NCBI GenBank assembly: GCA_027972325.1
Contig: JAPMOS010000186.1
Span: 1 to 59,348 of the forward strand
DNA: 59,348 nt
DNA from: Paratrimastix pyriformis
Lineage: Eukaryota > Preaxostyla > Paratrimastigidae
Reading direction: 5' to 3'
Position numbers and translations under genes: made by a program. The notes beneath the pieces were generated by a model. It saw only the letters and a list, made by a program, of their open reading frames with translations. It had not been told where the DNA came from and ran no database searches. Positions 704 through 52,182 of the stretch are shown here, in pieces; the first letter of the stretch is position 1; each line of letters starts with the position of its first letter.

Positions 704-1000
704 GGTCCCGAAGCCCGACTTCCGTTATCGGGCCGAAGCCCGCGGGTAAAATAGACCTCCGTCCGCCCTCCGCGAGACAAGCTCGCAAGAAGGAACGACA
801 CGTCCCTTCATCCATCCCTTCCTCATTCTTCTCGTTCTTCTTCCGTTGCTTGATCGCTACAAGCATAGTTCTCCGAAGTCCACCCAGTTCGCTCCCAATC
901 TCCTTCTGGGTCTCTTCATCCACAATCCCCAGCTCTGCTGCCAGTCTGCAGTCATTCGCGTAGATTTCCCGAAACCCGCACCGTCTTCGCAGTTCGACAT
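704..1000 (-). mobile_element. LINE-D: 5'-truncated LINE 3' end
   Basis: The minus strand encodes the last codons of the LINE ORF, ending in the MDEETQKEIGSELGGLRR and KKNEKNEEGMDEG stretches that also close LINE-B (17979) and LINE-C (52316). These are followed by the family's 3' hairpin CGGGC-TTCG-GCCCG at 743-730 (minus). About 60 bp of the 3' UTR present in LINE-B is missing here, and that deletion removes the normal stop. The (AC)n tail is absent. Only about 300 bp remain, as expected for heavy 5' truncation during reverse transcription. Confidence 0.8.
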
Positions 1001-1868: not shown

Positions 1869-1921
1869 GTGTGTGTGTGTGTCATACATGTTTGCAACAT
1901 AGAGATGCAAAACTCCCGATT

Positions 1922-1935
1922 CCGGCCGAAGCCGG
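1922..1935 (-). promoter_or_regulatory. 3' UUCG hairpin of SRE copy 4
   Basis: On the minus strand CCGGC-TTCG-GCCGG forms a five-base-pair stem with a UUCG tetraloop, preceded by ATGTCACC. It is equivalent in position and loop to the LINE hairpins at 12798, 17846 and 52183. I infer that it is the site recognised by the LINE reverse transcriptase. Confidence 0.65.
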
Positions 1936-2374
1936 GTGACATGACCCCAGTCCTCCCATGTTCCCGCAATTCTGCGGGCAACTAGGGCTAGGGGCGGGGC
2001 TATGGTGACAGGGAGACAGAATGGAAAACGGGGGAGGAGGGACCAAGAAATGGGGTCGGAGATCAACACAGGAAACACTGAACAGTGGGGAAAAGATTGA
2101 ACCGAAAGGAACACAATTCCATTACATTGGCACTTCCTGGGCGTTGGGCAGTCGGGTTCCCATGTACCATCGGGTGCTCGTGTGGAACACAAACATCGGG
2201 GCGTGTTGCTGGCGGATCCACCATCCAAAGTCCCGCTTCCGCGGCCCGTCCGGTCCCGCGGGCACTCGAGCCGCCCGCTCCCCTTCAACCCCAGATCCGT
2301 GGGGCAGAGCGAGGCTCCTTCGAAGCTTGCGGCGTGTCAGAAGCCCTTGCGCAGGCAGGGACAAGCGCGGGGCA

Positions 2375-2460
2375 GCATGGGCAGGGGCAGGGCAGGGGCA
2401 GGGGCAGGGCAGGGGCAGGGGCAGGGGCAGGGGCAGGGGCAGGGGCAGGGGCAGGGGGGC
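2375..2460. repeat. (GGGGCA)n tract
   Basis: About fourteen GGGGCA/GGCAGG hexamer copies, a G-rich strand with potential to form G-quadruplexes. On the minus strand it encodes a Pro-rich run inside the SRE copy 4 ORF. Confidence 0.9.
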
Positions 2461-2489
2461 AGGGGCCACAGTGGGAGTCGCAGTGGGTG

Positions 2490-2605
2490 CTGATGCAGTG
2501 GGGCTGGTGCAGATGCAGTGGGGCTGGTGCAGATGCAGTGGGGGCTGGTGCAGATGCAGTGGGGCTGGTGCAGATGCAGTGGGTGCTGGTGCAGATGCTG
2601 TGGGG
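2490..2605. repeat. 21-bp minisatellite
   Basis: Six or so copies of a unit like GCAGTGGGGCTGGTGCAGAT, some with one extra G. On the minus strand it encodes Ala-Pro-Thr-Ala-Ser repeats in the low-complexity middle of the SRE copy 4 ORF. Confidence 0.9.
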
Positions 2606-3084
2606 GCTGGGGCGGCACCATGAACGGATTCCCGAACTGCGCCGGCTGTCGGGCAACAGCAGGGCGCACAGCAAAGGATTGCTGCCAGCCTTCCCTCAAC
2701 CCTGTCCTTCTTCTTTGCTGGCGAAGGCTCAGGGGATGGCGGACGTGGCCGACTCGTACCACCTCCCAGCTGAAGCGGTGCAGCGGAGGGTCGATGCAAT
2801 GTGCGGTCACTTTTCCGGGAGGCTGTTTGACAGTGCTCGGTGACTTTGGACACAGGCCAGATTGGGGCGAAGCAGGGGCGGGTTCACCGAAGCAACAGGT
2901 CGGGCTGGAACGGGGTCGCCATCGATACTCGCGATACAGCAACGGCCTTGTTGGCAGACTCCAAATTGAAAATAGTGGCACCACAAATGAATTGAATCAA
3001 TTGCGCAAGCTTTGGCAGCACAGAGATTGATCGCCCCGCCGACCGTAGAATGCTCAAACTGATGCGCTGAAGCAACTTGGTCGA

Positions 3085-3142
3085 CGGGATGCGGTGGTCT
3101 CATGTTGGTCTCCACTCAGAGACCAGCGAACGATCACCCGTC
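3085..3142 (-). repeat. 58-bp dispersed repeat with GGTCTC/GAGACC stem
   Basis: Nearly identical, inverted, to 20545-20600 inside LINE-B. It contains GGTCTC-TGAGTG-GAGACC, a perfect six-base stem, and GGTGATCGTTCGCTGG. Origin unknown. In LINE-B it lies within a clear insertion. Confidence 0.6.
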
Positions 3143-10170: not shown

Positions 10171-10192
10171 GCTCGACTTCGGCTGTCGACTC

Positions 10193-10369
<177 letters not shown>

Positions 10370-10633
10370 AGCCACCAAATACCCAAAAAGTTTGCCAAAC
10401 TCAGGGATCATGGTCGAAGTAAAGGAAAGGCGGCTCAGCTGGTCCATGCTCCGGAAGATAGCTCGATGATCGTCGAGCTCGTCAAAGCACAGAAATGGAT
10501 CTTCTTCATCCAGAATAGAAGCATGCTTTTCAATAAAAGCACTGGTTTCGTCGTCCAGATCATCATTCACAGCCGTGATTTCGCAGGCCATAGCCCTGCG
10601 TAAATCGTGTTGAACTGAGAATAGTGCCGGGGG
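10370..10633 (-). mobile_element. SRE copy 3: 5' part with N-terminal ORF
   Basis: On the minus strand the element begins CCCCCGGCAC (10633), like CCCCCCGGCATT at the start of SRE copy 2, and a 42-bp leader precedes ATG at 10591. The encoded start contains VNDDLDDETSAFIEKHASI, then EEDPFLCF, and ends MIPEFGKLFGYLVA. It aligns with the copy 2 segments ENDDLDGDVSNF, NDDPFLRFLNR and MLPELAKLFGYI. After 74 codons the reading frame enters the (ATC)n tract, and no C-terminal block or 3' hairpin is seen. The rest has been lost or replaced by microsatellite growth. Confidence 0.75.
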
Positions 10634-10639
10634 AATGTG

Positions 10640-12745: not shown

Positions 12746-12797
12746 GTGTGTGTGTGTTGTGTGTGTGATACTTCCCAGCTTTCGCCGGGTCCGTGCT

Positions 12798-12811
12798 CGG
12801 GCCGAAGCCCG
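12798..12811 (-). promoter_or_regulatory. LINE-A 3' UUCG hairpin
   Basis: On the minus strand CGGGC-TTCG-GCCCG, preceded by TTACCCG and followed about 30 bases later by GTATC and the (AC)n tail. Confidence 0.65.
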
Positions 12812-12930
12812 CGGGTAACATGAACCCCCCGGTCCGCCCTCCCCGCGAGATAAACTCGCAGGATGGGACGTCCCAAGAGGCCCATGGGTCGGCTACCGTC
12901 CCCGAGGGACGGTCACCGCCGACCCCCGGA

Positions 12931-14310
12931 CTACGTCTCCTCGTTCATCCCTTCTTCATTTTTCTCGTTCTTCTTTCGTTGCATGATCGCCAGCAGCATG
13001 GTTTTGCGGAGTGCACCAATTTCGCTCCCAATCTCCTTTTGGGTGTCTTCATCCACAATCCCCAACTCTGCTGCCAGTCTGCAGTCATTCGCGTACATCT
13101 CTCGAAATCCGCACCGCCTCCGAAGTCTTCCCGCAACTTTCCGCACCACCCCCTCTGAGATCCCCCTCCAGTTGTGGAGCACCTCGCCCTCCTTCGGACG
13201 CCCCTCTAGTCAGCCTCCACCTTCCGCGCACCCGCCTCTTTCCGAAGCATATTCTCCAATGCCCACAAGGGGGCTGGGTCCATCTGGAATCTCTCTCGGG
13301 CCCTCTGGTTCTCAAAGAGCAGGATGCCCACGTCGAACGGGGCCTTCCCCGCACCTTTCTCCCCTGTCCGCCAGAAGCTCGGCAGCAGCCAGAAGCCGAA
13401 ACCCCCTTCCTCAATGATAAACAGCTCCTTCAATCGCATGTCCCCCCTCAAGGCCAATCCGACGCCATGCTGCGCCTCCATTCCCTGCACCGGCCGCGTC
13501 CGGTTGGGCTTACCCACCCCGTACGGGACGATTGCGATGCATCGGAAGGCTCTCTTCCCAGCTCTTCCCATTGGACTCTCTGCCCAATCGCCAATTGCCT
13601 TAAATAATCGGTCCATCTCTTCCTGGGGGTTGTACTCCGGGTTGGCAAAGATGAGGAGGTCACGATTCTCCTTGAACAGCCCATACCCATCCAGTCTTCC
13701 ACCCAAAAAACAATCATCTTTGCTGGGTGTTCTGAATTCGGGGAAGCTCAAATCGGCATTCCCAGGATGCGAGAATGCCATCGTTGTCAAACTGCCTGCT
13801 TGTCTGAGCAGAGAGGACACCACGTGGGGGGTCGTCCACGGGTTTCGCAGGGTGCTCTTGTGGGTCTGCCCTTCTGCCATCTCCGTACTCACTCCATCCG
13901 CGTACCGATCGCACAGGTTCGCCACTTCTGTTGAAAATGTTTCCCAGAAGCTGTCCCAGGTTCCTCCACCCATTTTTCTTGGAGCAATTGTTCTGCATCT
14001 TCTGCTCCTTCCCCCTTGTCCAGCCACGCGATCAGTTTGATCGCATTGGCACCACTCCACCTTTCCACGACGCTGCCCATCATCGCCGGGCACTCGAAAA
14101 CCAAATGGTTCGTATAGTCTCTCGCCCCACACCAACATTTCCCATCCCCTTCACCATTGATGTATAATCTGATGTTGGCCGTGATGTAACGCTGCAAGAT
14201 TGCCATCATGGCCAGTCTACCCGACATTTCACACCGCATGGTCTGCGTATTTATTCCGCCATTTCCCGTCTGAGCATTGATGACCACTAGTGCATTCTTG
14301 CACTTCTAGG
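12931..14310 (-). pseudogene. LINE-A C-terminal domain and zinc-knuckle region
   Basis: Minus strand. It carries the KCWCGARDYTNHLVFECP motif (C-x-C-x7-H-x4-C), like the cysteine-histidine knuckle found after RT or RNase H in several LINE clades. Next comes IAIVPYGVGKPNRTRPVQGM, then DVGILLFENQRARERF, and a basic end (AIMQRKKNEKNEEGMNEET). LINE-B and LINE-C carry the same regions with better-preserved frames. Compared with them, LINE-A lacks about 80 bp between the knuckle and the NLCDRYADG stretch, including the MDRLWELIERSRGRWYR part. The frame shifts near 13200 and again around 13890-14290. Confidence 0.8.
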
Positions 14311-14890
14311 CTGTCCTGAAGATGCGCCCTTTGCGGCCCCACTCTTGTAGGTTTTCACGAAAATCTCCCTCCACCGTCTTTCCATCGCTCCGCCGGACAA
14401 GCCGAAATCCCCAGGTCTGCTCTTGCGGCTCCTTGGTGCTCTCCAGTTTTATACTCTGGCCTGCAATCTTGTCCGCCAACCTATTCCCCTCCGCATCCAG
14501 CGATGCCCCTGTCTCCTGGTGCCCCTTTATCCAAACCAGCCTGACCTCGCCCCTATGTTCCTCCAAGATTCGTTGGCCCCTCCGAAGAAGACCCTCAGCC
14601 TTCGACTCGATTAGGTCGGTCGGCGTCCAGTCTCTCCTCATCAGCCCTTCCACCCATCCCTTCGCCACCTTGCTGTCCGTGCGCACCTCCACGTTTGCAT
14701 CCTGTCCCACCCTGATGGCCTCCAGGATGGCCTCAAGCTCTGCCTCATTGTTTGTTTGCCCCCTGCCCGTGCACCTTCTTCCAACCCGCACTGCCAGCAC
14801 CCCGTTGGGTAGCCGCTCCACCACCGCCAGTGCCGCTCGCCGGTCCTTCTTCTTCCTGGATGCACTACCGTCCGTATAGAATGTCCGCCA
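14306..14890 (-). pseudogene. LINE-A RNase H domain
   Basis: The minus strand encodes the RNase H fold. FYTDGS lies near 14885, then TNNEAELEAILEA, then VRTDSKVAKGW, and EGNRLADKIAGQ near 14470. These supply the four acidic catalytic positions (D, E, D, D). The enzyme would remove the RNA strand of the RNA-DNA hybrid after target-primed reverse transcription. It sits between the RT-side thumb region (15898-15203) and the CCHC region. A frameshift separates the first Asp from the rest. Confidence 0.85.
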
Positions 14891-15202
14891 CTTGAGGCTC
14901 CTCTACCGGCACTTCCACCTCGTCGCATTCCGCTCGCAGCGCCTCCATTCTGCTCCTCATGCCGCCATCTTTGTTTCCCTCCTGCTTCGGGCGCCCCCTT
15001 GTTGCATTCGTCGTCCCACTCGCCCCTACCTTCTCTTTTTTACCCTCCCTGTCGCCCTGCGTCTTTCTCCGACACGTCGCCGGCACCACCACCGAGAGCT
15101 TCCCACTCTGCCCCAAAGCCAACTTGGTCTGCTTCTTCCCCTTCTTTGCTTCTCCAGTCTTGCAGCCGGCTCCATTGACCTTGTCCTCGCCATTCCTCTG
15201 CT

Positions 15203-17255
15203 TCAATGCCCTCTGGCTCCTCCCTCGCTCTCTCCATCCTTGCTTTCTCTTTCCTTCTCCGCCGCCTCTTCCTCTCTAATCCGCCTCGCCAGCTTCACGT
15301 ACTCCGTCTCCACTCTGTTCCCCCAGACGCAGACCCGCTCCATGATGGCTTTGACATACTGTGGCTTCCTGCCCTTCCACTGGAACCTACCCCCCACTGT
15401 CAGGTCTGCCACGCTCCTGATCCCCCTCCTCATCAGTGTTTGTCTGTGTTGCTTGGTGATCCTGTGCGGGCTTGCCAATTCCTCCAGTGTTGTTGGCATC
15501 CCATACCCCTGCTCCTCTTTCAGCTCCTCGCCCTCCCTGAGAATGGCCAGATCATTCCTGGACATGACCTGCAGCATCCCCGAGAGGATGCCAGGCATCT
15601 TCTCCTTTCCGTGGAGCCTTCCCCACTTACCCGGGTCATCCAGCAGGGGTTCACTTGTGGTCCACAACTTCTGAAGAAGTGCAATCACCCCACATCCTTG
15701 TTCATCCGCCACTCTCCCCAACAACTGTGTTAGCACCATCATATCATGCACATCCACCGGGTCCTTCAGGCCCATGCCCCCTTCATCCTCCGGGAAGAAA
15801 AGCACCTCCGCCGGATCGCACTTCCCCAGACAGCCACCAATCTCCCTAAAGACCCTCGCATATCTTTGCCGTAGGATCTCCAAGTCCTTCTTTGGCATGG
15901 GGCACTGTCTGGCGGAGGCACGTCGACACGCACTCGTTGATCATCTGCACCATCAACCTCGGGGGGACCTTCTTGTCCATCAGCCTGTGCAGCCTCCCGC
16001 ACATTTTCTGGATGACCTTCTCCGTGTTGACCTTCATGTTCATCTCCTCGTCTATCCAAATCCCCAGGTATCGGATGGCCCCACCCTTCTGCTGGACCTT
16101 GATGACCCGACCCTCACCCAGGTCCAGGTCCGTCTTGCTCTTCACCCCCCCACACAGGTAGTCACACTTGGTCCACGACAGCTGCATGCCCGCCTCCTCC
16201 ACCTTCCGTCTCACTGTGTTGACCAACCGGACCATCTGCTCCTTGGTTCGAGTGACCAGCATAACATCGTCAGCAAAGGCAAGGACTTTCACCTTCCTCC
16301 CACTATCCAGGATATACCCACCTTCCTGCTTTCGCACCTCTGCCAGCACTTCTCCATGAATGAGATAAAGAGCAGACACGAAAGCGGGTCCCCCTGGCTG
16401 ATACCCCTTTCTATGTCGTAGCTCTCTGTCAGTCCGTACCCTGTGATCACTCTCGCCTCCTTCCCTCGTACAGACTATCTACGTACCTGATGAATGCCTC
16501 CTCCACCCCCATCCGTCTCAACCCCCTCCTCAGTGCGTCCATGTCCACCGTGTCGTATGCTTTTTTTATGTCCAATGAGCACATATGGAACTCTCGACCT
16601 CCCATAATTTTCGAGTCAGTGAGCACTCCCATAATCTCTGCGATTGGGGTCTCAATCCTCCGACCCCTCAAGAATCCAAACTGCTCCGCCCCAAACACTT
16701 GCTTCTCTACGCACCAGTCTTGAAACCGCGACGCCACCACCACCTGCAGCCCCTTCAGAAAAACTTGGATCAAAGTGATCGGTCTCCTTACTGCCGGGTC
16801 CCCCGGGTGCTCCGTCTGCGATTTCGTGGCCATAAACACCGAGCTAACTTGAGCTCCTGCGGCACCTCACTCTTTTCCAGCATCTCATTATATCTCCTTC
16901 TCATCCACTCCTTGATCTCATCCTGACAGGCGTGAATCATCTCCGCCGTCACCCCGTCCGGGCCCGCTGCCTTGCCATCTGGGAGTGCTCCCAGGATCGT
17001 TTCAACGTCATGCATGGTAAGGGGGGCCATGATGACCCTCTCCTCCTCTTGAGACCTTCCCACCGGTGCCTGCTTCATCGGCATCACTCTCCTTGCCAGG
17101 TCCGCCATGAATTCCCTCCATCCCCTCTTCACCAATTCTGGATCTGTCACCACCTTATCCACCTTGCCTTCACCGTTCTTGGTGGCATACGCCGTGACGG
17201 GCGCCACCCCGTCAGTCATTATGCCCTTATATATCCGTTTGCGTTTTCCCTCCAA
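15203..17255 (-). pseudogene. LINE-A reverse transcriptase
   Basis: Minus strand, in three overlapping frames. RT motif 0 is LPDGKAAGPDGVTAEMI (about 16990). The next frame carries FGFLRGRRIETPIAE and HMCSLDIKKAYDTVDM, the motif A Asp region. The third carries the catalytic LAFADDVMLVT near 16275, followed by TKCDYLCGG and IRYLGIWIDEE. The rest is the thumb and connection region (GGCLGKCDPAEVLFFPEDEGG). FADD is the usual form in LINE RTs. At least two frameshifts within the RT make this copy inactive. Confidence 0.88.
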
Positions 17256-17798: not shown

Positions 17799-17845
17799 GT
17801 GTGTGTGTGTGTGTGATACTTCCCGGCTTACGCCGAGTCCGTTAT

Positions 17846-17859
17846 CGGGCCGAAGCCCG
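17846..17859 (-). promoter_or_regulatory. LINE-B 3' UUCG hairpin
   Basis: CGGGC-TTCG-GCCCG on the minus strand, preceded by ATGTTACCCG. A second small stem CGGC-TTAC-GCCG lies just before the GTATC-(AC)n tail. Confidence 0.65.
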
Positions 17860-17978
17860 CGGGTAACATAGACCTCCCGGTCCGCCCTCCCCGCGAGACA
17901 AGCTCGCAAGAAGGAACGCCCCAAGTGGTCCATGGGTCGGCTCGCGCCCACAAGGGGCGGTCACCGCCGACACTCGGA

Positions 17979-19673
17979 CTACGTCCCTTCGTCCATCCCT
18001 TCCTCGTTCTTCTCGTTCTTCTTCCGTTGCTTGATCGCTACAAGCATAGTTCTCCGCAGTCCACCCAGTTCGCTCCCAATCTCCTTCTGGGTCTCTTCAT
18101 CCACAATCCCCAGCTCTGCTGCCAGTCTGCAGTCATTCGCGTAGATTTCCCTAAGCCCGCACCGTCTTCGCAGTCTCCCAGCAACTTTCTTCACCACACC
18201 TTCTGAAATCCCCCTCCAGTTATAGAGCACTTCGCCCTCCTTCGGACGCCCCTCATAGTCAGCCTCCACTCTTCGCGCTCCCGCCTCCTTTCGCAACATG
18301 TTCTCCAATGCCCACAAGGGGGCTGGGTCCATCGGGAATCTCTCTCGGGCCCGCTGGTTCTCGAAGAGCAGAATGCCCACGTCAAACGGGGCCTTCCCGC
18401 ACCTTTCTCCCCGTCCGCCAGAAGCTCGGCAGCCAGAAGCTGAAGCCCCTTCCTCAATGATAAACAGCTCCTTCAGTTGCATGTCCCCCCTCAGCGCCAA
18501 ACCGACTCCATGCTGCGCCTTCATTCCCTGCACCGGCCGCGTCCGGTTTGGCTTACCCACTCCGTACGGGACTATCGCGATACATCGGAAGGCTCTCTTC
18601 CCAGCTCTACCAATTGGGCTCTCCGCCCAATCGCCAATTGCCGGAAATAACCGGTCCATCTCCTCCTGTGGGTTGTACTCCGGGTTGGCAAAGATGAGGA
18701 GGTCGCGATTCTCCTTAAACAACCCGTAGCCATCCAGTCTTCCACCCAAAACCAGTCATCCTTGCTGGGCGTTCTGAATTCAGGGAAGCTCAAATCGGCA
18801 TTCCCAGGATGCGAGAATGCCATCGTTGTCAAACTGCCTGCTTGTCTGAGCAGAGAGGACACCACGTGGGGTCGTCCACTGGTTTCGCAGGGTGCTCTTG
18901 TGGGTCTGCCCTTCTGCCATCTCCGTACTCATCCCATCCACATATCGATCGCAGAGGTTCGCCACTTCTGTGGTGAACATTTCCCAGAAGCTGTCCCAGG
19001 TTCGGGCGCGGTACCAGCGCCCCCGCGATCGCTCGATGAGCTCCCAGAGTCTGTCCATCGCTATTTGCTTACCTCTCACCTGCACACTTTGACCCATAGG
19101 CTCCACCCATTTTTCTTGGAGCAATTGTTCTGCATCTTCTGCTCCTTCCCCCTTGTCCAGCCACGCGATCAGTTTGATCGCATTGGCACCACTCCACCTT
19201 TCAGCGACACTGCCCATCATAGCCGGGCATTCAAAAACCAAATGGTTCGTATAGTCTCTCGCCCCACACCAACATTTCCCATCCCCTTCACCATTGATGT
19301 AGAATCTGATGTTGGCCGTGATGTACCGCTGCAAGATTGCCATCATGGCCAGTCTGCCCGACATTTCGCATCGCATGGTCTGCGTATTTATTCCGCCATT
19401 TCCCGTCTGAGCATTGATGACCACCAGTGCGTTCTTGCGTTTCCGGGCCGCCCTGGAGATGCGTCCGCGGCGGCTGAAGGACTGGAGGCTTGTGCGAAAG
19501 TCTCCCTCCACCTCCTCCCCGTCGCATTGGTGAACCAACCGAAAACCCCAGGTCCGTTTTTGTTGCACCTTGCCTATGTCCTGTTTGATGCTTTGCCCGG
19601 CAATCTTGTCTGCCAATCTGTTCCCCTCCGCATCCAGCGATGCCCCTGTCTCCTGGTGCCCCTTCACCCACAC
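17979..19673 (-). pseudogene. LINE-B C-terminal region with CCHC motif
   Basis: Minus strand. It starts in the last RNase H motif (GHQETGASLDAEGNRLADKI), then the KCWCGARDYTNHLVFECP knuckle, then the WDSFWEMFTTEVANLCDRY helix, then the C-terminal block with IAIVPYGVGKPNRTRPVQGM and the basic end EGMDEGT. It differs from LINE-C by small indels near 18400 and 18760 that shift the frame, so LINE-B is not intact. It is the best internal reference for reading LINE-C and LINE-D. Confidence 0.8.
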
Positions 19674-20025
19674 CAGCCGGACACCCCCTGTGCTCCTTCA
19701 GAATTCGCTGTCCCCTTCGGAGGAGGCCCTCAGCCTTCGACTCGATCAGGTCCGTCGGAGTCCAGTCGTCCTTCATCAGCCTCTCCACCCATCCCTTTGC
19801 CACCTTACTGTCCGTGCGCACCTCCACGTTTGCATCCTGTCCCACTCTGATGGCTTCCAGGATGGCCTCCAGCTCTGCCTCATTGTTTGTTTGCCCTTTT
19901 CCCGTGCACCTTCTCCCGACCCGCACAGCCAGTGCCCCATTGGACAGCCGCTCCACCACCGCCAATGCCGCTCGCCGGTCCTTCTTCTTCTTGGTCGCGC
20001 TACCATCTGTGTAAAAGTCCGCCAC
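19630..20025 (-). pseudogene. LINE-B RNase H domain
   Basis: The minus strand has ADFYTDGSATKKKKDRR, then TNNEAELEAILEAIRV, then EVRTDSKVAKGWVERL. The fourth acidic position (GNRLADKIAG) follows in the next frame at about 19610. The motif order matches LINE-A closely. It is preceded by a Lys/Arg/Glu-rich linker (20500-20030) without a recognised domain. Confidence 0.85.
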
Positions 20026-20539
20026 TTCAGCTCGGGCTCCTCCACCCGCACCTCCACCTCCTCACACTCCGCCCGCAGTGCCTCCCATCGCCTCCACATT
20101 GCCTCGTCCCACTTGCCCGCTTTCATCCGGCTCTTCTTGCTTTCCCCGTTTTGGTCCAGGTGCCTCTCCGCCCCCCTCTTCTTGTCGCTGGCTTCAACAT
20201 GCATCCTCTCCGTTTCGCCATCCCCTTGCTCGTCGGGCTTCCCTTTCTTGGCGGCCTCACACCCCGGCTCCCCGCTTCGGCGTTTCCTGTTCTTCGCCAC
20301 GACCACCAGCTTTCCTCCTTGCCCCACCATCAGCTTGGCTTGTCTCATCTTCCTCTTCGGGTCTGGGATCCCGTGATCCTCCCCACCATCCTCCTCTCTC
20401 TTGCCTGTATCCCGTCCCGTCCTCTCTCGGCTCTCCTCCTTTTCCTGTTCCGTCCTTGCCCTCTTTCGATCTCTTTCTGCCACTTCTTCCTCTCGGATCC
20501 TCCTCGCCAGCTTAACATATTCCGTCTCCACTTTGTTCC

Positions 20540-20672
20540 CCGGACGGGTGATCGTTCGCTGGTCTCTGAGTGGAGACCCAACATGAGACCACCGAACACC
20601 ATCATCACCATCATCATCACCATCATATTCCATCCATCATCATCAGCAGCACACGGCGGCAACAACACTGGG
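20540..20672. repeat. About 130-bp insertion inside LINE-B
   Basis: LINE-A reads continuously across the equivalent place (CTTTGTTCCCCCAGACGCAG, 15317). LINE-B instead carries an insert with the 58-bp repeat also found at 3085-3142, then ATC-rich triplets and a CACACACAC run. It may be a short non-autonomous element. No clear target duplication is visible. Confidence 0.6.
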
Positions 20673-21497
20673 GGGCCACACACACACCCGCTCCTTGATG
20701 GCCTCCACGTACTGCGGCATCGTGCCCTTCCACTGAAACCTACCGCCCACAATCAGGTCAGCCACACTCCTGATGCCCCTCTTCATAAGTGTCTGCCTGT
20801 GCCGCTTGGTGATTTTGCATGGCTCTGCCAGCTCCTCCAGTGTTGTCGGCATTCCCCATTCCGCTTCCTTTTTCAATACTTCCCCATCCCTCACGATGGC
20901 CAACCCCTTCTTGTGCAAGATCCTCAACATCCCCGACACCACCCCCGGCATCTTCTCCTTCGCGTGCAGTCTGACCCACTTCCCGGGGTTGTCCAGCAGC
21001 GGCTCACTCGTCGTCCACAACTTTTGCAGCAGGGCTATCTCTTCACGGAGCATCACGCCGCACCCTTGTTGGTCTGCCACCCTGCCCAGCAGTTGCGTAA
21101 GCACCATCATGTCGTGCACATCCACCGGGTCCTTGAGACCCATCCCACCCTCATCCTCCGGGAAGAAGAGCACCTCCTCCGGGTCACATTTCCCCAAGCA
21201 CCCACCAATCTCCCGAAATACTCGTGCATAGCGCTGTTGAAGAATCTCAAGGTCCTTCTGCGGCATGGGGCACGTCGACACGCACTCGTTGATCATCTGC
21301 ACCATCAACCTCGGGGGGACCTTCTTGTCCATCAGCCTGTGCAGCCTCCCACACATTTTCTGGATGACCTTCTCCGTATTGATCTTCATGTTCATCTCCT
21401 CGTCTATCCAAATTCCCAGGTATCGGATGGCCCCACCCTTCTGCTGGACCTTGATGACTCGACCCTCACCCAGGTCCAGGTCCGTCTTGCTCTTCAC
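20643..21497 (-). pseudogene. LINE-B reverse transcriptase, thumb region
   Basis: The minus strand encodes the end of the RT: KSKTDLDLGEGRVIKVQQ, IRYLGIWIDEEMNM, then the conserved REIGGCLGKCDPEEVLFFPE stretch and a KITKRHRQTLMKRGIRSVAD segment. The catalytic FADD region would lie to the right but is missing, because the sequence switches to integrase element copy A at about 21501. The frame is open over the remaining 285 codons, which ends within the 20540-20672 insertion. Confidence 0.85.
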
Positions 21498-21829
21498 CCC
21501 CTGTTTCCGGTTTTGTATGGACGGGGCGTCGACAAGAACCCAGAGTGCACAGGGCGTTCATGAACGGGGGGGGGGGTGAGCGAGAGCCGGTTTTGGGGAT
21601 CCTCTGGGAGAAAACTGGTAATGCACGCAGCCCCTCCCCCCCCCCCCCCCACCGTTGATGGCATCCGGCCCCCTCCAACGATTTCACCCCCCACCCCCCT
21701 CCTCGAGCATTCGTATAAGATCATTTTTGTTTTTGCAGAAAACCGGACCGGAAAACTGCGGGACGGGGGCGGTGGTGGGGATGGTGGGGTTGGGGTGTTT
21801 TATTCTGGGGCGCGTGACGCCGGCGATCA

Positions 21830-22160
21830 ACGACGGGGACCAGAGCGCCTCCCGCAGCAGGGAGCGGGACATCGAAGGTGGCATCGTAAGGCCGCAGTTG
21901 TTGCGCCCGTAGACCTTTGGAATGCCCGGCTTGACCCGATCCTCAAACTCGATGACGTAGGTGCCGTTACGCATGCGTTCCGCCACCCTCCCGGACCAGC
22001 AGAACCTGCCAATGCCGGGCCGGCGCCATTTGGCAGGCGGGGCGACCATGACGCGAGTCCCCTCCTCGATGGTCTCTTGGTCCTTGTTGCGGCGCCGCTC
22101 AATGTAGCCGTACTCGCGGTGCCGGTAGAACGCCACGGCCTCCTTGATTTGGCGCAGCTC
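21830..22160 (-). pseudogene. Integrase C-terminal part, copy A
   Basis: The minus strand encodes ELRQIKEAVAFYRHREYGYI, then TRVMVAPPAKWRRPGIGRF and GTYVIEFEDRV. This small beta-barrel-like tail is usual after retroviral-type integrase cores. SRE copy 1 separates it from the catalytic core at 23598-24378. A fossil gene interrupted by that insertion. Confidence 0.7.
22149..22160 (+). repeat. Target-site duplication, left side of SRE copy 1
   Basis: TTGGCGCAGCTC, matching TTGGCGCACCTC at 23586-23597 with one mismatch. It defines SRE copy 1 as 22161-23585. Confidence 0.8.
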
Positions 22161-22215
22161 CCGGGGTTCTAGCCGATCAGCACATTCAAATTGCGTGCTT
22201 GTTCTTCCCTCGTGC

Positions 22216-23334
22216 ATGCATATTGCCGAGGAGAATCACCTTAGTGACTTTCAAGCTCATTTTCTAAAAGAGCACGCACAATGTGGCAAGCGCGAAGTGT
22301 TTATTGAATTTTTCAATCGCGCTGAGGAAGATGATCTGGTCTTCCACGACCTTGACCACATTTCTACTTTCAAGAATTCGATGCTGGATGAATTTTGCAA
22401 ACTCTTTGGGCATTTGGGTTTCTCTTCTGGAGCGCTTCCTTCGAGTACCTTGTTGAAGGGCATCATTGAATCGCTGCAGAAGGGTTGTTCTCCAGCTGTG
22501 TCTCGGGATCGCATTGCCGTCTGGATCCAGAAACTATTGTCCTCGTTTATGTGGCAGTGCTATCTCAAGTATCGAGACGACGCTCCACCATCTCATTCTC
22601 GCCACTCTTCGGCATCCTCAACTGACGACTCGTCTGACCCTCCAACTTCGCCAGAACGTTTTCCTACGCGTACCCATCAACGTGGTGGGGGACCGGGACG
22701 TGTACATTCCCGGTCTCACTCATCATCTGATTCATCGGCGACGAGGCGCAACAAGACTCCCCGCTCCCGCGTCCGTTCACGCTCACCGAAGCACGCGGAT
22801 GCAAAGGGGGGTTCGCCTCGCCCCTCGCCCAAGAAGGCTGCGCGTACGGAGGCGACCTCCACACCTGCCCGGGAGGTGACGCCGCCCCCGCCTCCGCCCC
22901 CCCCTGCCGCCTCGGTGCCGGCCCCTGGTCCGGTCCAGACTGAGCAGGGGAAGCCGCTCCTGCAGTCCGCCTTGGGTCTCGCCCAGGCGGGATGGAAGGC
23001 GATCAAGGGGCCGTTTGCGCGGGCAGCCCCCGCTCCGACCAAGCCGGCTGCGGCCAAGTCGAGTGTTCTGGCGCCCCCTCCACCACCTCCTCCCACTTCT
23101 CGCCCTTCTGACCCTCCTTCACGTCCATCTGCTCCTCCTCTTCCCTCTGCCTCCCCAATCTCGTGTGCCGATCTTGGCGTCCGTGTGGTGCGTGCCGGGC
23201 GTCCTCCTTTTCCAACCCCGGATGGACCGGCGGTGAGAGACTTCTCGTGGTTGCGCGCGAGCACTGTCTATGTGTGCTACACCCACGCACGATGGTATGT
23301 CGGGAGTAAACCTCCCCCGTTCAGGCCTTTTTAA
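22216..23334 (+). CDS. SRE protein of unknown function (copy 1)
   Basis: A 372-residue protein, taking ATG at 22216; an in-frame ATG at 22144 lies outside the element and is rejected. Residues 1-115 are acidic and helical: MHIAEENHLSDFQAHFLKEH, then a DDLVFHDLDHIS segment, MLDEFCKLFGHLG and WIQKLLSSFMWQC. Residues 120-320 are disordered and rich in Ser, Arg, Pro and Ala (SRSHSSSDSS, RSRVRSRSPKH). The C-terminus is RDFSWLRASTVYVCYTHARW, then YVGSKPPP. The N- and C-terminal blocks recur in copies 2, 3 and 4. I see no zinc finger, RRM or enzymatic motif. An RNA-binding ORF1-like role is only a guess from the Arg/Ser tail and the element context. Confidence 0.8.
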   Translation: MHIAEENHLSDFQAHFLKEHAQCGKREVFIEFFNRAEEDDLVFHDLDHISTFKNSMLDEFCKLFGHLGFSSGALPSSTLLKGIIESLQKGCSPAVSRDRIAVWIQKLLSSFMWQCYLKYRDDAPPSHSRHSSASSTDDSSDPPTSPERFPTRTHQRGGGPGRVHSRSHSSSDSSATRRNKTPRSRVRSRSPKHADAKGGSPRPSPKKAARTEATSTPAREVTPPPPPPPPAASVPAPGPVQTEQGKPLLQSALGLAQAGWKAIKGPFARAAPAPTKPAAAKSSVLAPPPPPPPTSRPSDPPSRPSAPPLPSASPISCADLGVRVVRAGRPPFPTPDGPAVRDFSWLRASTVYVCYTHARWYVGSKPPPFRPF

Positions 23335-23485
23335 AATGTCTTTTCGTTCTTTTGTTTCATGGATGCGGGGGGTTCTGCGTGTTCTCTCTCTCCTGTCCGC
23401 TCCTTCCATTCCATGCGTCTGCTGCCGGTCTTCAGTGGACGAGTGCGTCGTCCATGTTGGTTGGTGGTTTATCGCATGTTACCCC

Positions 23486-23499
23486 CCCACTTCGGTGGG
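23486..23499 (+). promoter_or_regulatory. 3' UUCG hairpin of SRE copy 1
   Basis: CCCAC-TTCG-GTGGG, preceded by ATGTTACCCC. The stem sequence differs from the other copies but the loop and the upstream TTACCC are kept, which argues for selection on structure. Confidence 0.65.
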
Positions 23500-23585
23500 A
23501 TGCACCCCCCGTTATGAGCTGATCAATACAGGGGGTGTTGGGCGGGGGACCCCTTTTGGGGTTTCTCCAAGTATCCAACACACAC

Positions 23586-23597
23586 TTGGCGCACCTC
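23586..23597 (+). repeat. Target-site duplication, right side of SRE copy 1
   Basis: TTGGCGCACCTC, directly after the (AC)n tail. Pairs with 22149-22160. Confidence 0.8.
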
Positions 23598-24378
23598 CGC
23601 GGCCGTCAGGTTGGCGAACTTGTCCGGCAGCTGGGCCATGTCGCCCAGTTGTTCGTACTCGGGGAGGTAGAGCGCCATCATCACAACCGGGCGTTGCTGG
23701 AAGACCGAAGAAACCGTGGCCGTGTTGTACAGGTGCACGGCGGGCTGCAGGAAGGGCTGCCACGGCAGCTCGCGGTTGGTGGCCGGCACGATACGCATCT
23801 TCATCACCCGGTTCTTGATCTTCTTGACGGCGTTCTCGGCCTTCCCATGAGACTGGGGGTAGTACGGCCTCGACCGGTGGTGCTCCATGTGGACCCCGGG
23901 CAGCAGGTTCTTGTTCCTGAGCGGGCGGGTGAGGTGGTGGAATGATGACTGTGAAGAGCAAATCCGAAACGCACAGAACAGACGCGATCCACTCGGCCAC
24001 GCGCTGGTTGACGAACTCGGTCCCATTGTCGGTCACGATCCGGGTGGGGAGCAGATTGGGCTCGTCGCTGGTGAACACACGACTGAGAAGGTCGGTCACC
24101 TCCTGCCCGGTGGCCTTCGTCTCCCATGTCGCGGCGGCCCACATGTAGCTCGTGAAGTGGTCCACCAGGACGCAGAACGCGCGAGGCGGCTGGCAGCTCA
24201 TCTCGAAGCCGCCGCAGTCGAGCTCGACCACCTCGAGGGGCCGGTTGACCACCAAGGCGTGGTACTTGGGATGCTCGTACGTGGGCCGGACGCTCTGGCA
24301 CTGGCCACACGTCCCGATGATGTCCCGTGCAAGCTGATCCACGCCATGGATGTAGAAGAGGCCCTTCGAGTAGGCAAT
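23598..24378 (-). pseudogene. Integrase catalytic core, copy A
   Basis: The minus strand gives the end of a zinc-binding HHCC module (SKGLFYIHGVDQLARDI, then TCGQCQS), the core with VELDCGGFEMS (first Asp), VTDNGTEFVNQ (second Asp) and SHGKAENAVKKIKNR (Glu). This is the DDE catalytic triad of retroviral-type integrases. The N-terminal His residues present in copy B are missing here because repeat Rp cuts the element at about 24378. A fossil. Confidence 0.85.
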
Positions 24379-24533
24379 GGTGGGATAGCCGAGTAATCTC
24401 TTCCCCAAACAAACCCAAACCAAGAAAGAGTGAACACTTGCACAGCAAGCACGCAAAACGGCACTGACATCCAAAAATATTATCAAAAGAATTTGACATG
24501 TCATGTCAGTGCCGGCAGTCGACTCGTCCTTTA
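24379..24533 (-). repeat. Dispersed repeat Rp, copy 2
   Basis: Contains CCCCAAACAAACCCAAACC and the CGGCACTGACAT...ATGTCAGTGCCG core. It joins directly to the truncated integrase. The junction side (GGGATAGCCGAGTAATCTC) matches the left half of the mini-element at 26000. Confidence 0.75.
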
Positions 24534-25999
24534 AGCATAAGCCCATTCGGACGACGACACGCCAGCCACCGACGCAGAGTAAGGTGGGAAGGGAGTCAGT
24601 ACCGCGCAACGCAGTAAACAATCCAGCTGGGAGTCACAGCTCCCGAAGGTTTCAAAGAAAACGAAGAAGAGAGATTCATGATCAACCATGCGAACCCCAA
24701 ACATCTCCTCAAGCGGGTCGCGACCCGCCCCGGGGGGTGCACGTCTAGTCAGGGAAAGAGGAGGCTGGAGAAAACCCCGACGCACCGCTGTAACCGGTCA
24801 GCAAAAACAGGTGGGAGAGAAGCCACAAATAAAAGGAGGGGCGAAACCTTCAAAGGCCCCGAAGGTACCGAGTCTTCCCGTACTCGGCACCCTCCATAGG
24901 GAATCCTTCCCTCAACGGGTCGGACCCCCCGCAAATAAAACAACGAAGAAGATCGGACAAAACAGCGAGAGGACTCGTTCCGGCATGGCGCGGGCCAAAG
25001 GCACGCGTCGAGAAAAACGCAGAGCACGACGGAGCCGCGACAGGCACCTTGCCTCGCAGATCCCAGGAGGGTTCTCGCCCCGTGCTCGCGGCTCCTTCGT
25101 CACCAGTCGCCGACCGGCGCCGGTGAAGCGGTGGAGGCAACCTTGCCGTGCAGGCGTCGAGTTCTGTATAGAGAACCCAAGCCCCACCAAAAACGCAAAC
25201 CCCGAAGGGAGAGAGAGCACGAAAGGTGACGTATCGATCGCCACTTCAGGGTGCTCAACAAATATCCCTCCCGTGAGAGGGAGGTGTGTGGTGGGGTGAG
25301 CGGGGTGGTTCACGGGCACAACGGCCACGATGAAATATCACTCGTCAAAACAGAACAGACGACGATGAATGACAAACCCCGACCCCCCATTCTGGATGTG
25401 GAGGATGCATGGTGCCCACCACGGTAAAGCCACACAGCTGTGCCACAACAAAACGGGGTGAAAGACAACACCCCGCACCAGTCCCTCGAGCTGTTGCCCA
25501 TTCAGAACAGACAAGGAGGAAGACAACACCCCACACCGCCATGAAGGTGCATGATGGGTGTCCCAAGAGTACAACGAGCCGGATGACCCATAAGCTGTTT
25601 CAAGCAAAGTAGCTGGGGGTGAATGACCACACCTCACCCCACCATGAATGCCCAATCACATCAGACGAGGGTGAATGAGGGTGAATGAAGGGTGGTGTCT
25701 CAAGGGCAAGAGGCCCCGACGAGGCCCCAGACACTGTTGTCCAAGGGCACCAAACAAGGTTGAACAACAGCCACACTCGCCTCCCCACGAGGCAGCCCTC
25801 CTGACTTGTCAATCAGATTGTGTGGGTGAACAGGCAGCAGTACAGCCAAGGGAGCACGTACGAAGATTGCGCTGCGAAGACAAAATGCCCACCATCAATC
25901 ACGACCATGGGTACACGTTGAGTCGAAGCTTCGCGGGGAAAGCAGCAACAAACAAACCCAGTGCCACTCGTCAGGCAGGGAGGTGGGTGGGAGACTTGT
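24534..25999. other. Non-coding region with degenerate tandem repeats
   Basis: I find no supported gene. Bases 25340-25680 hold about two copies of a unit of roughly 155 bp (CAGAACAGAC near 25350 and 25504, ACACCCC...CACC motifs). An open basic frame at 24688-25299 (RERGGWRKPRRT, KGGAKPSKAPKVPS) resembles one at 35214 (RERGGWRN, EGAKPQEKTPGG), but length and context do not support a gene call. Confidence 0.5.
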
Positions 26000-27379: not shown

Positions 27380-27389
27380 AAGAAAAAAC
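27380..27389 (+). repeat. Target-site duplication, left side of SRE copy 2
   Basis: AAGAAAAAAC, identical to 28826-28835. Confidence 0.8.
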
Positions 27390-27439
27390 TCCCCCCGGCA
27401 TTGGCGTCCTTTTGAATTCAAATCCGAGCGTCCCGTTGG

Positions 27440-28555
27440 ATGGAAATCTGCTCGGAAAATGACGATCTTGATGGAGACGTCAGCAACTTCGTCATGATGC
27501 ATGCCGAAATTAAACGCAATGATGATCCGTTTCTGCGCTTCCTGAACCGCGACATCTCTGAAAAGCATCTCCGCTATACGGATCTGGACAGCGATTTCAA
27601 GGTGCTTACGCAAAAGATGCTTCCTGAGCTTGCGAAATTGTTTGGGTACATCACTGTTCACAAGCAGCGGGTCGTCTCCAGAGCATTGCTGAAGACGATC
27701 GTTGAAATGCTCGGCAGCCTCGAGCGAGAAATGCTCGTTTCGTCTATGACTGACTTCTTTTATCAAGTGCTTGGCTCTGTCACGTGGCATGCTGGACAAT
27801 CGGACTTGGAGAGTATCTCATCGGAATCGTCCGAGGAGCTCCCAATGAGTATGCGTTTTGGTGGTCCCGCAGCCTCATCCAACCGCTCTTTGAAACCGTC
27901 TGATTCGTCACGTCACACAACCTCAATGAGTGGGTGTCGGCCGACATCATGTATCACCACCCCACCCCGTCAATTGGGTGGAGGTCCGCCACACCCTCGC
28001 AGCCCTCCTTCTCCGAAGTCGCTCTCGGGCTCCAAGAAAGGACGGGCTGCCAACCCCTTTGAGGTCACCACTGTGCACCCCCCTGCGGTCCCGGCCCCCT
28101 TCGGGAACCCGTTTGCACATCAACCGGCGGCGCCCACCGCCCCGTCCACCCCGGTTCCTGACCCAGTGGTCGCCAAGCCGCCTGCGAGCTCCCGCACCCC
28201 AGCCCCAGCCTCGGCGAAGGGGGGTGAGCCCGGAGGCAAGAAGTCGATCGCCCCTGCAGTGGGTGCCCCTGCCCCTGCTGTCCCTGTTGTTGTGCCCCCC
28301 TTGTCTGTGTCTGGCCCTGCCATGGCTGACACCAAGGCGCCTGATCCCGCTGCCGTGGCGCCGGCTGCTTCCGCTGCTGTTCGCAAGATTGGTGCCGCCG
28401 ACCTGGTCCCCAGCCGGGGGGATCATGATGTGGGGAAGGAGCCAGTGTGGGGACGGTGGATCAGGGGACCATCCAAGTTGAGCTACCGGTCATTCCGGTG
28501 CTGGTGGATGGGCAGTAGCCCCCCCTCAGGCTGGCGCGAGGAGTGCTTCTCGTAG
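27440..28555 (+). CDS. SRE protein of unknown function (copy 2)
   Basis: 371 residues, intact frame; ATG at 27440 matches the leader length of copies 1 and 3. Residues 1-115: MEICSENDDLDGDVSNFVMM, then NDDPFLRFLNRDIS, DLDSDFKVLTQKMLPELAKL followed by FGYI, and a helical DFFYQVLGSVTWH. The centre is Ser/Pro/Ala-rich and likely disordered. The C-terminus is WGRWIRGPSKLSYRSFRCWW, then MGSS. Against copy 1, the shared positions are mainly the F-x-x-F pair, DLD, ML-x-E-x-x-KLFG and the C-terminal W-[IL]-R...R-x-W-x-x-G. Function is unrecognised; its retention at full length in divergent copies suggests the protein matters for the element. Confidence 0.82.
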   Translation: MEICSENDDLDGDVSNFVMMHAEIKRNDDPFLRFLNRDISEKHLRYTDLDSDFKVLTQKMLPELAKLFGYITVHKQRVVSRALLKTIVEMLGSLEREMLVSSMTDFFYQVLGSVTWHAGQSDLESISSESSEELPMSMRFGGPAASSNRSLKPSDSSRHTTSMSGCRPTSCITTPPRQLGGGPPHPRSPPSPKSLSGSKKGRAANPFEVTTVHPPAVPAPFGNPFAHQPAAPTAPSTPVPDPVVAKPPASSRTPAPASAKGGEPGGKKSIAPAVGAPAPAVPVVVPPLSVSGPAMADTKAPDPAAVAPAASAAVRKIGAADLVPSRGDHDVGKEPVWGRWIRGPSKLSYRSFRCWWMGSSPPSGWREECFS

Positions 28556-28733
28556 TAACTTTCGTTTTCTTTTTTCTGTTCTTCGGTCCCCCCGCCCCCT
28601 CATTCTGTCATGTCCTCTTTGTTCCATTTTGTATGCGAGTTGATGTTTCCTTGCGAGTTTCCAGTCTCTCTCTTCCTCCCGATGCCCCCTGTGCACCTTC
28701 CCCTGGAGGGAGCGCTGGGGTGCATTTTACCCG

Positions 28734-28747
28734 CCGGCTTCGGCCGG
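28734..28747 (+). promoter_or_regulatory. 3' UUCG hairpin of SRE copy 2
   Basis: CCGGC-TTCG-GCCGG, preceded by TTTTACCCG. Same loop as all LINE and SRE 3' ends in the window. Confidence 0.65.
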
Positions 28748-28825
28748 ACCAACGGTTTTCATTCACTATTTCTCAGTTCGATTATGTCGTGCTGTTTAGG
28801 TGATTGAATAGTATAACACACACAC

Positions 28826-28835
28826 AAGAAAAAAC
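28826..28835 (+). repeat. Target-site duplication, right side of SRE copy 2
   Basis: AAGAAAAAAC immediately after the (AC)n tail. Confidence 0.8.
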
Positions 28836-44639: not shown

Positions 44640-46064
44640 GTGTGTGTTGGATACTTGGAGAAACCCCAAAAGGGGTCCCCCGCCCAACACCCCCTGTATT
44701 GATCAGCTCATAACGGGGGGTGCATCCCACCGAAGTGGGGGGGTAACATGCGATAAACCACCAACCAACATGGACGACGCACTCGTCCACTGAAGACCGG
44801 CAGCAGACGCATGGAATGGAAGGAGCGGACAGGAGAGAGAGAACACGCAGAACCCCCCGCATCCATGAAACAAAAGAACGAAAAGACATTTTAAAAAGGC
44901 CTGAACGGGGGAGGTTTACTCCCGACATACCATCGTGCGTGGGTGTAGCACACATAGACAGTGCTCGCGCGCAACCACGAGAAGTCTCTCACCGCCGGTC
45001 CATCCGGGGTTGGAAAAGGAGGACGCCCGGCACGCACCACACGGACGCCAAGATCGGCACACGAGATTGGGGAGGCAGAGGGAAGAGGAGGAGCAGATGG
45101 ACGTGAAGGAGGGTCAGAAGGGCGAGAAGTGGGAGGAGGTGGTGGAGGGGGCGCCAGAACACTCGACTTGGCCGCAGCCGGCTTGGTCGGAGCGGGGGCT
45201 GCCCGCGCAAACGGCCCCTTGATCGCCTTCCATCCCGCCTGGGCGAGACCCAAGGCGGACTGCAGGAGCGGCTTCCCCTGCTCAGTCTGGACCGGACCAG
45301 GGGCCGGCACCGAGGCGGCAGGGGGGGGCGGAGGCGGGGGCGGCGTCACCTCCCGGGCAGGTGTGGAGGTCGCCTCCGTACGCGCAGCCTTCTTGGGCGA
45401 GGGGCGAGGCGAACCCCCCTTTGCATCCGCGTGCTTCGGTGAGCGTGAACGGACGCGGGAGCGGGGAGTCTTGTTGCGCCTCGTCGCCGATGAATCAGAT
45501 GATGAGTGAGACCGGGAATGTACACGTCCCGGTCCCCCACCACGTTGATGGGTACGCGTAGGAAAACGTTCTGGCGAAGTTGGAGGGTCAGACGAGTCGT
45601 CAGTTGAGGATGCCGAAGAGTGGCGAGAATGAGATGGTGGAGCGTCGTCTCGATACTTGAGATAGCACTGCCACATAAACGAGGACAATAGTTTCTGGAT
45701 CCAGACGGCAATGCGATCCCGAGACACAGCTGGAGAACAACCCTTCTGCAGCGATTCAATGATGCCCTTCAACAAGGTACTCGAAGGAAGCGCTCCAGAA
45801 GAGAAACCCAAATGCCCAAAGAGTTTGCAAAATTCATCCAGCATCGAATTCTTGAAAGTAGAAATGTGGTCAAGGTCGTGGAAGACCAGATCATCTTCCT
45901 CAGCGCGATTGAAAAATTCAATAAACACTTCGCGCTTGCCACATTGTGCGTGCTCTTTTAGAAAATGAGCTTGAAAGTCACTAAGGTGATTCTCCTCGGC
46001 AATATGCATGCACGAGGGAAGAACAAGCACGCAATTTGAATGTGCTGATCGGCTAGAACCCCGG
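44640..46064 (-). mobile_element. SRE copy 1' (duplicate of copy 1)
   Basis: 1,425 bp, minus strand, the same insertion as SRE copy 1 and carried along when the integrase element was duplicated. The hairpin CCCAC-TTCG-GTGGG lies at 44739-44726. It gives no independent evidence for mobility but shows the ORF unchanged between the two copies. Confidence 0.88.
44891..46009 (-). CDS. SRE protein of unknown function (copy 1')
   Basis: 372 residues, ATG at 46009. As read here the amino acid sequence is the same as copy 1 (22216-23334). It has the same N-terminal helical block, Ser/Arg/Pro-rich centre and C-terminal block ending HARWYVGSKPPPFRPF. See copy 1 for the domain description. Confidence 0.8.
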   Translation of the reverse strand: MHIAEENHLSDFQAHFLKEHAQCGKREVFIEFFNRAEEDDLVFHDLDHISTFKNSMLDEFCKLFGHLGFSSGALPSSTLLKGIIESLQKGCSPAVSRDRIAVWIQKLLSSFMWQCYLKYRDDAPPSHSRHSSASSTDDSSDPPTSPERFPTRTHQRGGGPGRVHSRSHSSSDSSATRRNKTPRSRVRSRSPKHADAKGGSPRPSPKKAARTEATSTPAREVTPPPPPPPPAASVPAPGPVQTEQGKPLLQSALGLAQAGWKAIKGPFARAAPAPTKPAAAKSSVLAPPPPPPPTSRPSDPPSRPSAPPLPSASPISCADLGVRVVRAGRPPFPTPDGPAVRDFSWLRASTVYVCYTHARWYVGSKPPPFRPF

Positions 46065-46573: not shown

Positions 46574-46579
<6 letters not shown>

Positions 46580-52135: not shown

Positions 52136-52182
52136 GTGTGTGTGTGTGTGTGATACTTCCCGGCTTACGCCGAGTCCGTTAT

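Follow-up and report, generated by a model that had tools for sequence, protein, structure and literature searches.

SRE elements of Paratrimastix pyriformis: non-autonomous retroelements with a LINE-type 3' end and a protein of their own

How does an element of 1.4 kb that encodes one protein and no reverse transcriptase (RT) spread through a genome, and does its protein take part? Two insertions raise this question in the window, the whole stretch of 59,348 nucleotides of DNA analysed here, which comes from the anaerobic flagellate Paratrimastix pyriformis (Preaxostyla, Metamonada). On balance, these insertions, termed SRE, are probably non-autonomous non-LTR retroelements that are mobilised by LINE machinery and use their own protein in cis. 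An earlier note on this DNA had described a family that encodes a protein, is non-autonomous and has a LINE-type 3' end; this description is supported.

SRE copies and their insertion sites

SRE1 copy A is full length at 1,425 bp (22161..23585, plus strand), with ends identical in 35 copies. Copy B (44640..46064, minus strand) is identical to copy A and lies within a duplicated 2.9-kb segment. An SRE2 copy of 1,436 bp (27390..28825, plus strand) is also full length. Copy A and the SRE2 copy have the positions that the earlier note gave, and each has one open reading frame (ORF) of the length reported there (371-372 codons): 372 aa in SRE1 (22216..23334, plus strand, ATG at 22216) and 371 aa in SRE2 (27440..28555, plus strand). 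Neither ORF matches a Pfam family at E 0.1. A decayed SRE4 copy (about 1869..3108, minus strand; 5' end undefined) retains an N-domain relic (2887-3108), a C-terminal frame (2125-2883), a hairpin match (1912-1945) and an (AC)n tail (1869-1882), all on the minus strand. The first 80 N-domain residues of SRE4 recur at 10355..10591 (minus strand). A 5S rRNA gene (3364-3480, plus strand; Rfam 84.6 bits) adjoins the decayed copy, and at 10157-10702 (minus strand) the SRE4 fragment continues into a long trinucleotide repeat, read as poly-methionine. No tRNA and no Rfam match was found over the window copies of SRE1, SRE2 and SRE4.

The genome (56 Mb, 495 contigs) was searched for SRE copies, as the earlier note had proposed. 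With 40 of 84 candidates scored and 44 matches listed, SRE1 has at least 35 copies that start at position 1 and extend to 1420 or beyond. At least 31 SRE2 copies start at position 4 or before and reach at least 1432 (40 of 194 candidates scored). Both families recur with fixed ends, and SRE3 and SRE4 can be added; judged by their sequences, the elements form four related families.

SRE1 copy A is flanked by target-site duplications (TSDs) that differ by one mismatch, TTGGCGCAGCTCC on the 5' side (22149..22161, plus strand; its last base is the element's first C) and TTGGCGCACCTCC on the 3' side (23586..23598, plus strand). The single mismatch had been reported correctly; the length is 13 bp rather than 12. 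The perfect 10-bp duplication reported for SRE2, AAGAAAAAAC, is present at 27380..27389 and 28826..28835 (plus strand). Exact TSDs of at least 8 bp flank 56 of 66 full-length copies (35 SRE1 and 31 SRE2), compared with 42 of 4290 mismatched flank pairs, in which one copy's 5' flank was set against another copy's 3' flank and shared-site pairs were kept. Their length varies from 8 to 21 bp. Ten copies were scored as having no exact TSD of this length (L008, L039, L041, L058, L063, L013, L026, L031, L071 and L073). Two of these, L013 and L031, do have 10-bp duplications; they were scored as lacking one because a T in the tail halted automated tail reading. L026 and L041 have TSDs with one mismatch. 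The 66 flanked copies represent 59 sites (60 distinct 3' flanks, with L013/L031 as one more equal pair). Read by eye, SRE3 copies L094 and L095 have the TSDs GTGGCTGCAT and GATCCGTTACA, and SRE4 copy L096 has GGAAGATCTACA.

The 1.4-kb unit has a TSD on either side, so SREs are not internal pieces of a longer RT-bearing element, a possibility that had been raised against them. Pfam searches of the SRE1, SRE2 and SRE3 proteins found no RT, and full copies span 1.4 kb between TSDs; the claim that SRE encodes no RT, RNase H or endonuclease stands. One SRE1 copy (L059) is nested in another, with host SRE1 positions 195-206 duplicated. In L070, SRE1 positions 800 to 3 are inverted ahead of 1226-1422, with an internal deletion and no evident TSD; an inverted 5' part is the layout expected from twin priming. 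A survey of 40 SRE1 3' ends (from 40 of 60 candidates scored) found 27 in full-length copies and 4 with an N-terminal match upstream. No collinear 5' part was found for the other nine, one of which is the inverted L070; 5'-truncated copies therefore exist.

Other features of the window and of further loci were recorded alongside. An ORF with an integrase core domain (23512..24621, minus strand; PF00665, E 1.8e-09) adjoins SRE1 copy A in antisense and has its last 74 bases inside SRE1. The 2.9-kb segment with this ORF is an inverted duplicate (21502-24378 and 43848-46735, 98.9% identity), and both copies hold the same SRE1 insertion. The same 26 bp, AGTAGTTATAAAAGGAGAGTTCTGAG, border three insertions (window 53867-53892; L079 reverse strand 297-322; L078 after SRE2 position 888) and probably belong to a different mobile element as its terminal repeat. 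Two frames at 32742-34870 (minus strand) match family B DNA polymerase (PF00136, E 2.8e-10 and, below cut-off, 0.0012); together with an ATPase-like ORF seen by eye upstream of the LINE at L080, they suggest integrated Maverick/virus-like elements. A 645-aa ORF (56450-58387, plus strand) matches recombination endonuclease VII (PF02945, E 1.3e-05).

A 3' end in common with a LINE

SRE1 and SRE2 end in a UUCG hairpin, GTAT and an A/C tail, as had been described. The common layout is ATGTTACCC, a stem of five pairs capped by UUCG, with GTAT and the A/C tail farther downstream. The hairpin lies at 23486..23499 in SRE1 (plus strand, 5-bp stem; model match 23473-23510, 47.1 bits) and at 28734..28747 in SRE2 (plus strand; model match 28721-28758, 54.7 bits). 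GTAT and the tail of copy A occupy 23571..23585 (plus strand). After GTAT, the tail is 11-29 nt in SRE1 (34 copies) and 7-23 nt in 26 of 31 SRE2 copies; the other five read 0-1. In L074-L077 the first 1.03 kb are about 96% like SRE2 and the 3' hairpin is of SRE3 type; these loci are possibly mosaics between SRE families.

The hairpin was assessed for covariation in ten sequences (two SRE1, two SRE2, three SRE3-type and three LINE; SRE4 was left out). Standard pairs occupy 50 of 50 cells (five pairs by ten sequences), and in 4 of 5 pairs compensatory changes have altered both sides. The covariation score of 0.658 was reached in 0 of 500 shuffles (mean 0.232) and falls to 0.147 or less when the partner is slid by 1-3 columns; two of the five measures are not outstanding, namely both-side changes, where 37 of 500 shuffles reach 4, and the number of additional pair types, reached in 370 of 500. 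Genome-wide, the motif pattern has 477 matches, compared with 1 for a reversed control pattern. The hairpin model has ten matches at E 1 or below in the window: SRE2, two in SRE1, four in LINEs, the decayed SRE4 copy (25.4 bits) and two weak ones. In single-sequence folding the hairpin is part of the minimum-energy structure of SRE1 and SRE2; it appears only partly in the LINE centroid and is absent in SRE4.

The same 3' end (UUCG hairpin, GTAT, A/C tail) is found in a LINE of roughly 9 kb in the same genome. One 3' part of this LINE in the window (17799..21501, minus strand) contains the end of the RT region, RNase H and the C-terminal region, followed by the same hairpin and GTATC(AC)n. A second (12746..16149, minus strand) and a third 3' part (52136..53866, minus strand) have the same end, and a 3' fragment with the hairpin lies at 718..993 (minus strand). 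RNase H is matched in the window LINE parts at E 1.2e-11 (PF00075). In the longer copy L079, ORF1 is a frame of 347 codons; a second frame, of 2365 aa, contains RVT_1 (E 1.3e-31) and RNase H (4.3e-18) and is followed, after a frame shift, by a C-terminal frame of 364 aa. The long frame also has an APE-like region that matches Exo_endo_phos below cut-off (5.1e-4). Ahead of the endonuclease-like region, the long ORF of L079 (minus strand) has a UCH-like protease region (PF00443, E 0.004, below cut-off). Two more LINE 5' regions, at L080 and L082, start at the same base as L079. No LINE TSDs were seen by eye at L079 or at the window copy 17799-21501. Mobilisation of SRE in trans by LINE machinery is very likely; the tail-sharing LINE is the likely source of this machinery because SRE and LINE have a common 3' end.

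The 5' starts of the families are (N)CCCGGGGTT in SRE1, (T)CCCCCGGC in SRE2, CCCCGGTT in SRE3 (by eye, two copies) and about CTCCGGC in SRE4 (by eye, one copy); between the TSD and the 5' core there are further bases that vary. The LINE starts with CCCGGGGTCGAG, a 23-base pattern found at 60 places compared with 0 in the control (2 mismatches allowed), and opens with CCCGGGGT, as does SRE1. Another LINE, inserted into SRE1 at L068, seems to begin with CCCCCGGTCG. P0006 (C74, at this locus) resembles an SRE-LINE fusion, as does P0024; the DNA behind P0006 looks like that insertion instead. In LINE orientation, other LINE-type loci begin with CCCGGG directly after CCCTAA repeat arrays (L084, 1-270; L086, 330-480); we take these repeats to be telomere sequence of the TTAGGG type. 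At L085 (about 800-840, same orientation) an apparent LINE 3' end is followed by two CCCTAA units and the next 5' start, an order that looks like that of telomere-targeted LINE arrays.

The SRE protein, its origin and selection

The SRE protein consists of an N-domain, a proline-rich (P/S/R-rich) middle and a C-terminal W..G..P motif. Some 125 positions of the N-domains can be aligned across the families, at 23-27% identity to SRE1, and the C-terminal motifs also align. The SRE1 and SRE2 N-domains have a local alignment score of 96 (best of 2000 shuffles, 55). The genome search with SRE4 as query recovered the window SRE2 (3.6e-10) as well as an SRE1 copy (2.5e-9), and that with SRE3 recovered SRE2-type copies (1.3e-12). 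By these alignments, the N-domains are homologous across families. BLASTP of the SRE1 against the SRE2 protein gave proline-rich noise only. Among 150 matches listed for each query, at least 75 for SRE3 run stop-free through residues 1-130, and at least 36 for SRE4 span residue 1 to at least 143; in SRE4 copy L096 the N- and C-terminal parts are in different frames.

Pfam holds no family for the SRE1, SRE2 and SRE3 proteins. The SRE4 N-part has two weak Pfam matches (E 0.064 and 0.081) and a PDB profile search gave one match (E 0.79); none of these is meaningful. A search of a phage collection gave no match. A model of the SRE2 N-domain from three sequences is all-helical at low confidence (mean pLDDT 64, pTM 0.59), so that a helical fold is weakly predicted. 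Three overlapping protein-database searches, which covered candidates sharing words with the query, gave 23, 12 and 36 matches (the third scored 7998 candidates). All are P. pyriformis gene models, and no relatives outside this species were found among the word-sharing candidates. Nearly all of the SRE-matching PAPYR gene models are named hypothetical; some PAPYR_ hypothetical proteins are thus mobile-element ORFs annotated as host genes.

The earlier note likened SRE to an ORF1-only LINE derivative, with mammalian HAL1 as the comparison. The ORF1 of the tail-sharing LINE is a different protein: compared as profiles with hhalign, the SRE N-domain and this ORF1 (three sequences) match with a probability of 0.1%. 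Profiles of the N-domain, the C-terminal motif and the whole protein were run with filters off against all frames of at least 30 codons in the window and 18 loci (L079-L096); above the inclusion threshold they found only SRE copies, and the SRE protein was undetectable in ORF1 or ORF2 of the tail-sharing LINE. A look-alike pattern between the LINE ORF1 and the N-domain is ruled out by these searches and the hhalign result. For the tail-sharing LINE, the comparison with HAL1 breaks down at the trait that defines HAL1, because the SRE protein is unlike that LINE's ORF1. No derivation of the SRE protein from this ORF1 is detectable, and the protein was probably not taken from the partner LINE.

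An origin of the HAL1 or HeT-A type might still involve another LINE, with the SRE protein as its ORF1, that is now extinct, rare, unassembled or outside the surveyed sequence; the enzyme of a present LINE would then copy SRE, their tails being alike. To our knowledge, the ORF1-only elements that can be named all derive from a LINE. The genome also has many RT families (at least 150 RT matches listed, of 904 first-look candidates), while the sequence ahead of an RT match was read only at L079 and in 14 more stretches, some of which lack a LINE 5' end. No full-length LINE with the SRE protein as ORF1, for which the earlier note had proposed to look, was found in these 15 regions. Such an origin is doubtful, given that the ORF1 of the tail-sharing LINE is unrelated and that genome protein searches with SRE1, SRE3 and SRE4 returned SRE copies among the listed matches checked.

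Selection on the ORF was assessed from 34 SRE1 and 38 SRE2 copies, full and partial, after six duplicate-site copies had been dropped. Substitutions were counted as shared if present in at least three copies; the expected nonsynonymous fraction is 0.70. In SRE1, shared substitutions are 20 synonymous and 11 nonsynonymous (p 9e-5 against expectation), whereas private ones are 11 synonymous and 34 nonsynonymous plus 2 stops (p 0.52). The SRE2 counts are 16 and 20 for shared (p 0.038) and 14 and 30 for private substitutions (p 0.61). Fisher p for shared against private is 0.0008 in SRE1, 0.26 in SRE2 and 0.0016 for both together (0.003, 0.36 and 0.004 before duplicates were dropped); substitutions in exactly two copies, left out of these counts, are 7 synonymous and 10 nonsynonymous in SRE1 and 4 of each in SRE2. 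The bias to synonymous changes among shared substitutions is clear in SRE1 and weak in SRE2.

Pairwise dN/dS is below 1 in all three protein regions when seven SRE1 copies are compared with one copy. For the whole SRE2 ORF it is 0.25-0.56 in eight copies and 2.0 in L073; in the SRE2 mosaics L074, L076 and L077, all of the 3-4 substitutions in the N-domain are nonsynonymous. Many SRE copies have frameshifted ORFs. The P. pyriformis assembly was, according to the genome paper, polished with Nanopolish and then with Illumina reads; our guess is that some frameshifts are residual assembly errors.

Shared changes are likely to have been transmitted by active elements. That shared substitutions lean synonymous and private ones do not makes it probable that the protein is of importance to the element encoding it; a protein kept by shared changes while dead copies drift is as expected of one that acts in cis. 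A need for the SRE protein in cis is accordingly the side to which we incline.

It is improbable that the ORF is a passenger, with SRE moving by its tail alone and the protein irrelevant to mobility. SINEs require no protein, many SRE copies have broken frames, and selection in SRE2 is weak. However, the same architecture is kept in four families despite the low identity of their N-domains, nonsynonymous changes are depleted among the shared but not the private substitutions of SRE1, and the long stop-free SRE3 matches point the same way. Retroposition of a host gene family, in the manner of processed pseudogenes, could account for the single ORF, the short leader and the PAPYR gene models among the matches. 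This origin is very improbable: a LINE-like tail and a C-rich 5' start are common to the families, numerous nearly identical copies lie at different sites, and no single-copy parent gene was seen among the SRE query matches. A DNA transposon or LTR-derived element, which the 31 of 40 SRE1 3' ends in full-length copies (unusual for LINE products) might bring to mind, is refuted by the tail and TSD structure (TSDs of variable length, variable A/C tails adjoining the 3' TSD, truncated copies), and no terminal repeats were seen in the sequences read.

Proposed mechanism and known systems

The favoured mechanism, taken as a whole, is more likely than not. A bolder reading, tentative at a probability of roughly 0.35, makes SREs a kind of LINE parasite between SINEs and LINEs: four families in which each element has to supply, in cis, an orphan RNP protein that did not come from the helper LINE, with the enzyme and its tail recognition borrowed from that LINE. 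In the favoured mechanism, SRE would probably be transcribed from a fixed C-rich 5' start (..CCGG); the product, a short mRNA whose leader measures about 50 nt, is best read, by analogy, as a pol II transcript. This mRNA would be translated into a protein with the N-domain, the P/S/R-rich middle and the conserved C-terminal motif. Like ORF1p or HeT-A Gag, this protein is probably one that binds the RNA encoding it and, to judge from the selection data, may help to deliver this RNA to the LINE enzyme, preferentially in cis. The LINE ORF2 protein would recognise the 3' end of SRE RNA (UUCG hairpin, GTAT-(AC)n) and copy this RNA by target-primed reverse transcription; what suggests these last steps is the end that SRE and LINE share, together with the TSDs, the tails of varying length, the 5'-truncated copies and the one 5' inversion. 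A pol II Alu transcript requires ORF1p besides ORF2p (PMC2666806), which would explain what a pol II element gains from a protein of its own.

If this is true, a non-autonomous retroelement can keep its own protein of separate origin and borrow only the LINE enzyme, and a natural split system makes the contribution of an ORF1-type protein, and its action in cis, testable. SRE would be an unusual half-way form between SINEs and LINEs. LINEs of Preaxostyla, and the elements that parasitise them, are described here as well. The open-licence literature yielded no paper on retrotransposons of P. pyriformis, no relevant paper on protein-coding SINEs and, by title, no work on SRE-like elements among that on Preaxostyla transposons; the word stem 'transpos' is absent from the main text of the genome paper.

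SINEs have a pol III promoter and encode no protein. In contrast, SRE has an ORF of 371-372 aa and no tRNA or Rfam head was found over its window copies. SINEs that share tails with LINEs of the ZfL2/UnaL2 type have the 3' stem-loop of the LINE, as does SRE. In such stringent-type LINEs, ORF2 is described as recognising the 3' stem-loop (PMC4176376); by analogy, the stem-loop of SRE and its LINE is a plausible handle for the LINE ORF2. SVA and LAVA resemble SRE in the trans mobilisation by a LINE that is proposed for SRE; we know of no protein encoded by either. For SVA and LAVA this mobilisation is reported in PMC7353768.

Two known systems do encode a protein. HAL1 (half-L1) of mammals is described as a non-autonomous non-LTR element encoding ORF1p alone (PMC5753468). 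Like SRE, it has one protein and no RT or endonuclease; the HAL1 protein is L1 ORF1p, whereas the SRE protein has no detectable relation to the ORF1 of the tail-sharing LINE. In HeT-A of Drosophila, the Gag is akin to the Gag of the partner element, and a Gag-like protein of this type has zinc knuckles; no such feature was found in the SRE1-SRE3 proteins by Pfam. HeT-A encodes Gag, and the TART/TAHRE RTs are considered likely to be critical for its transposition; its Gag and RNA are reported to co-localise and an RNP has been proposed (PMC6114517). HeT-A is telomeric, whereas SRE lies at scattered sites with TSDs.
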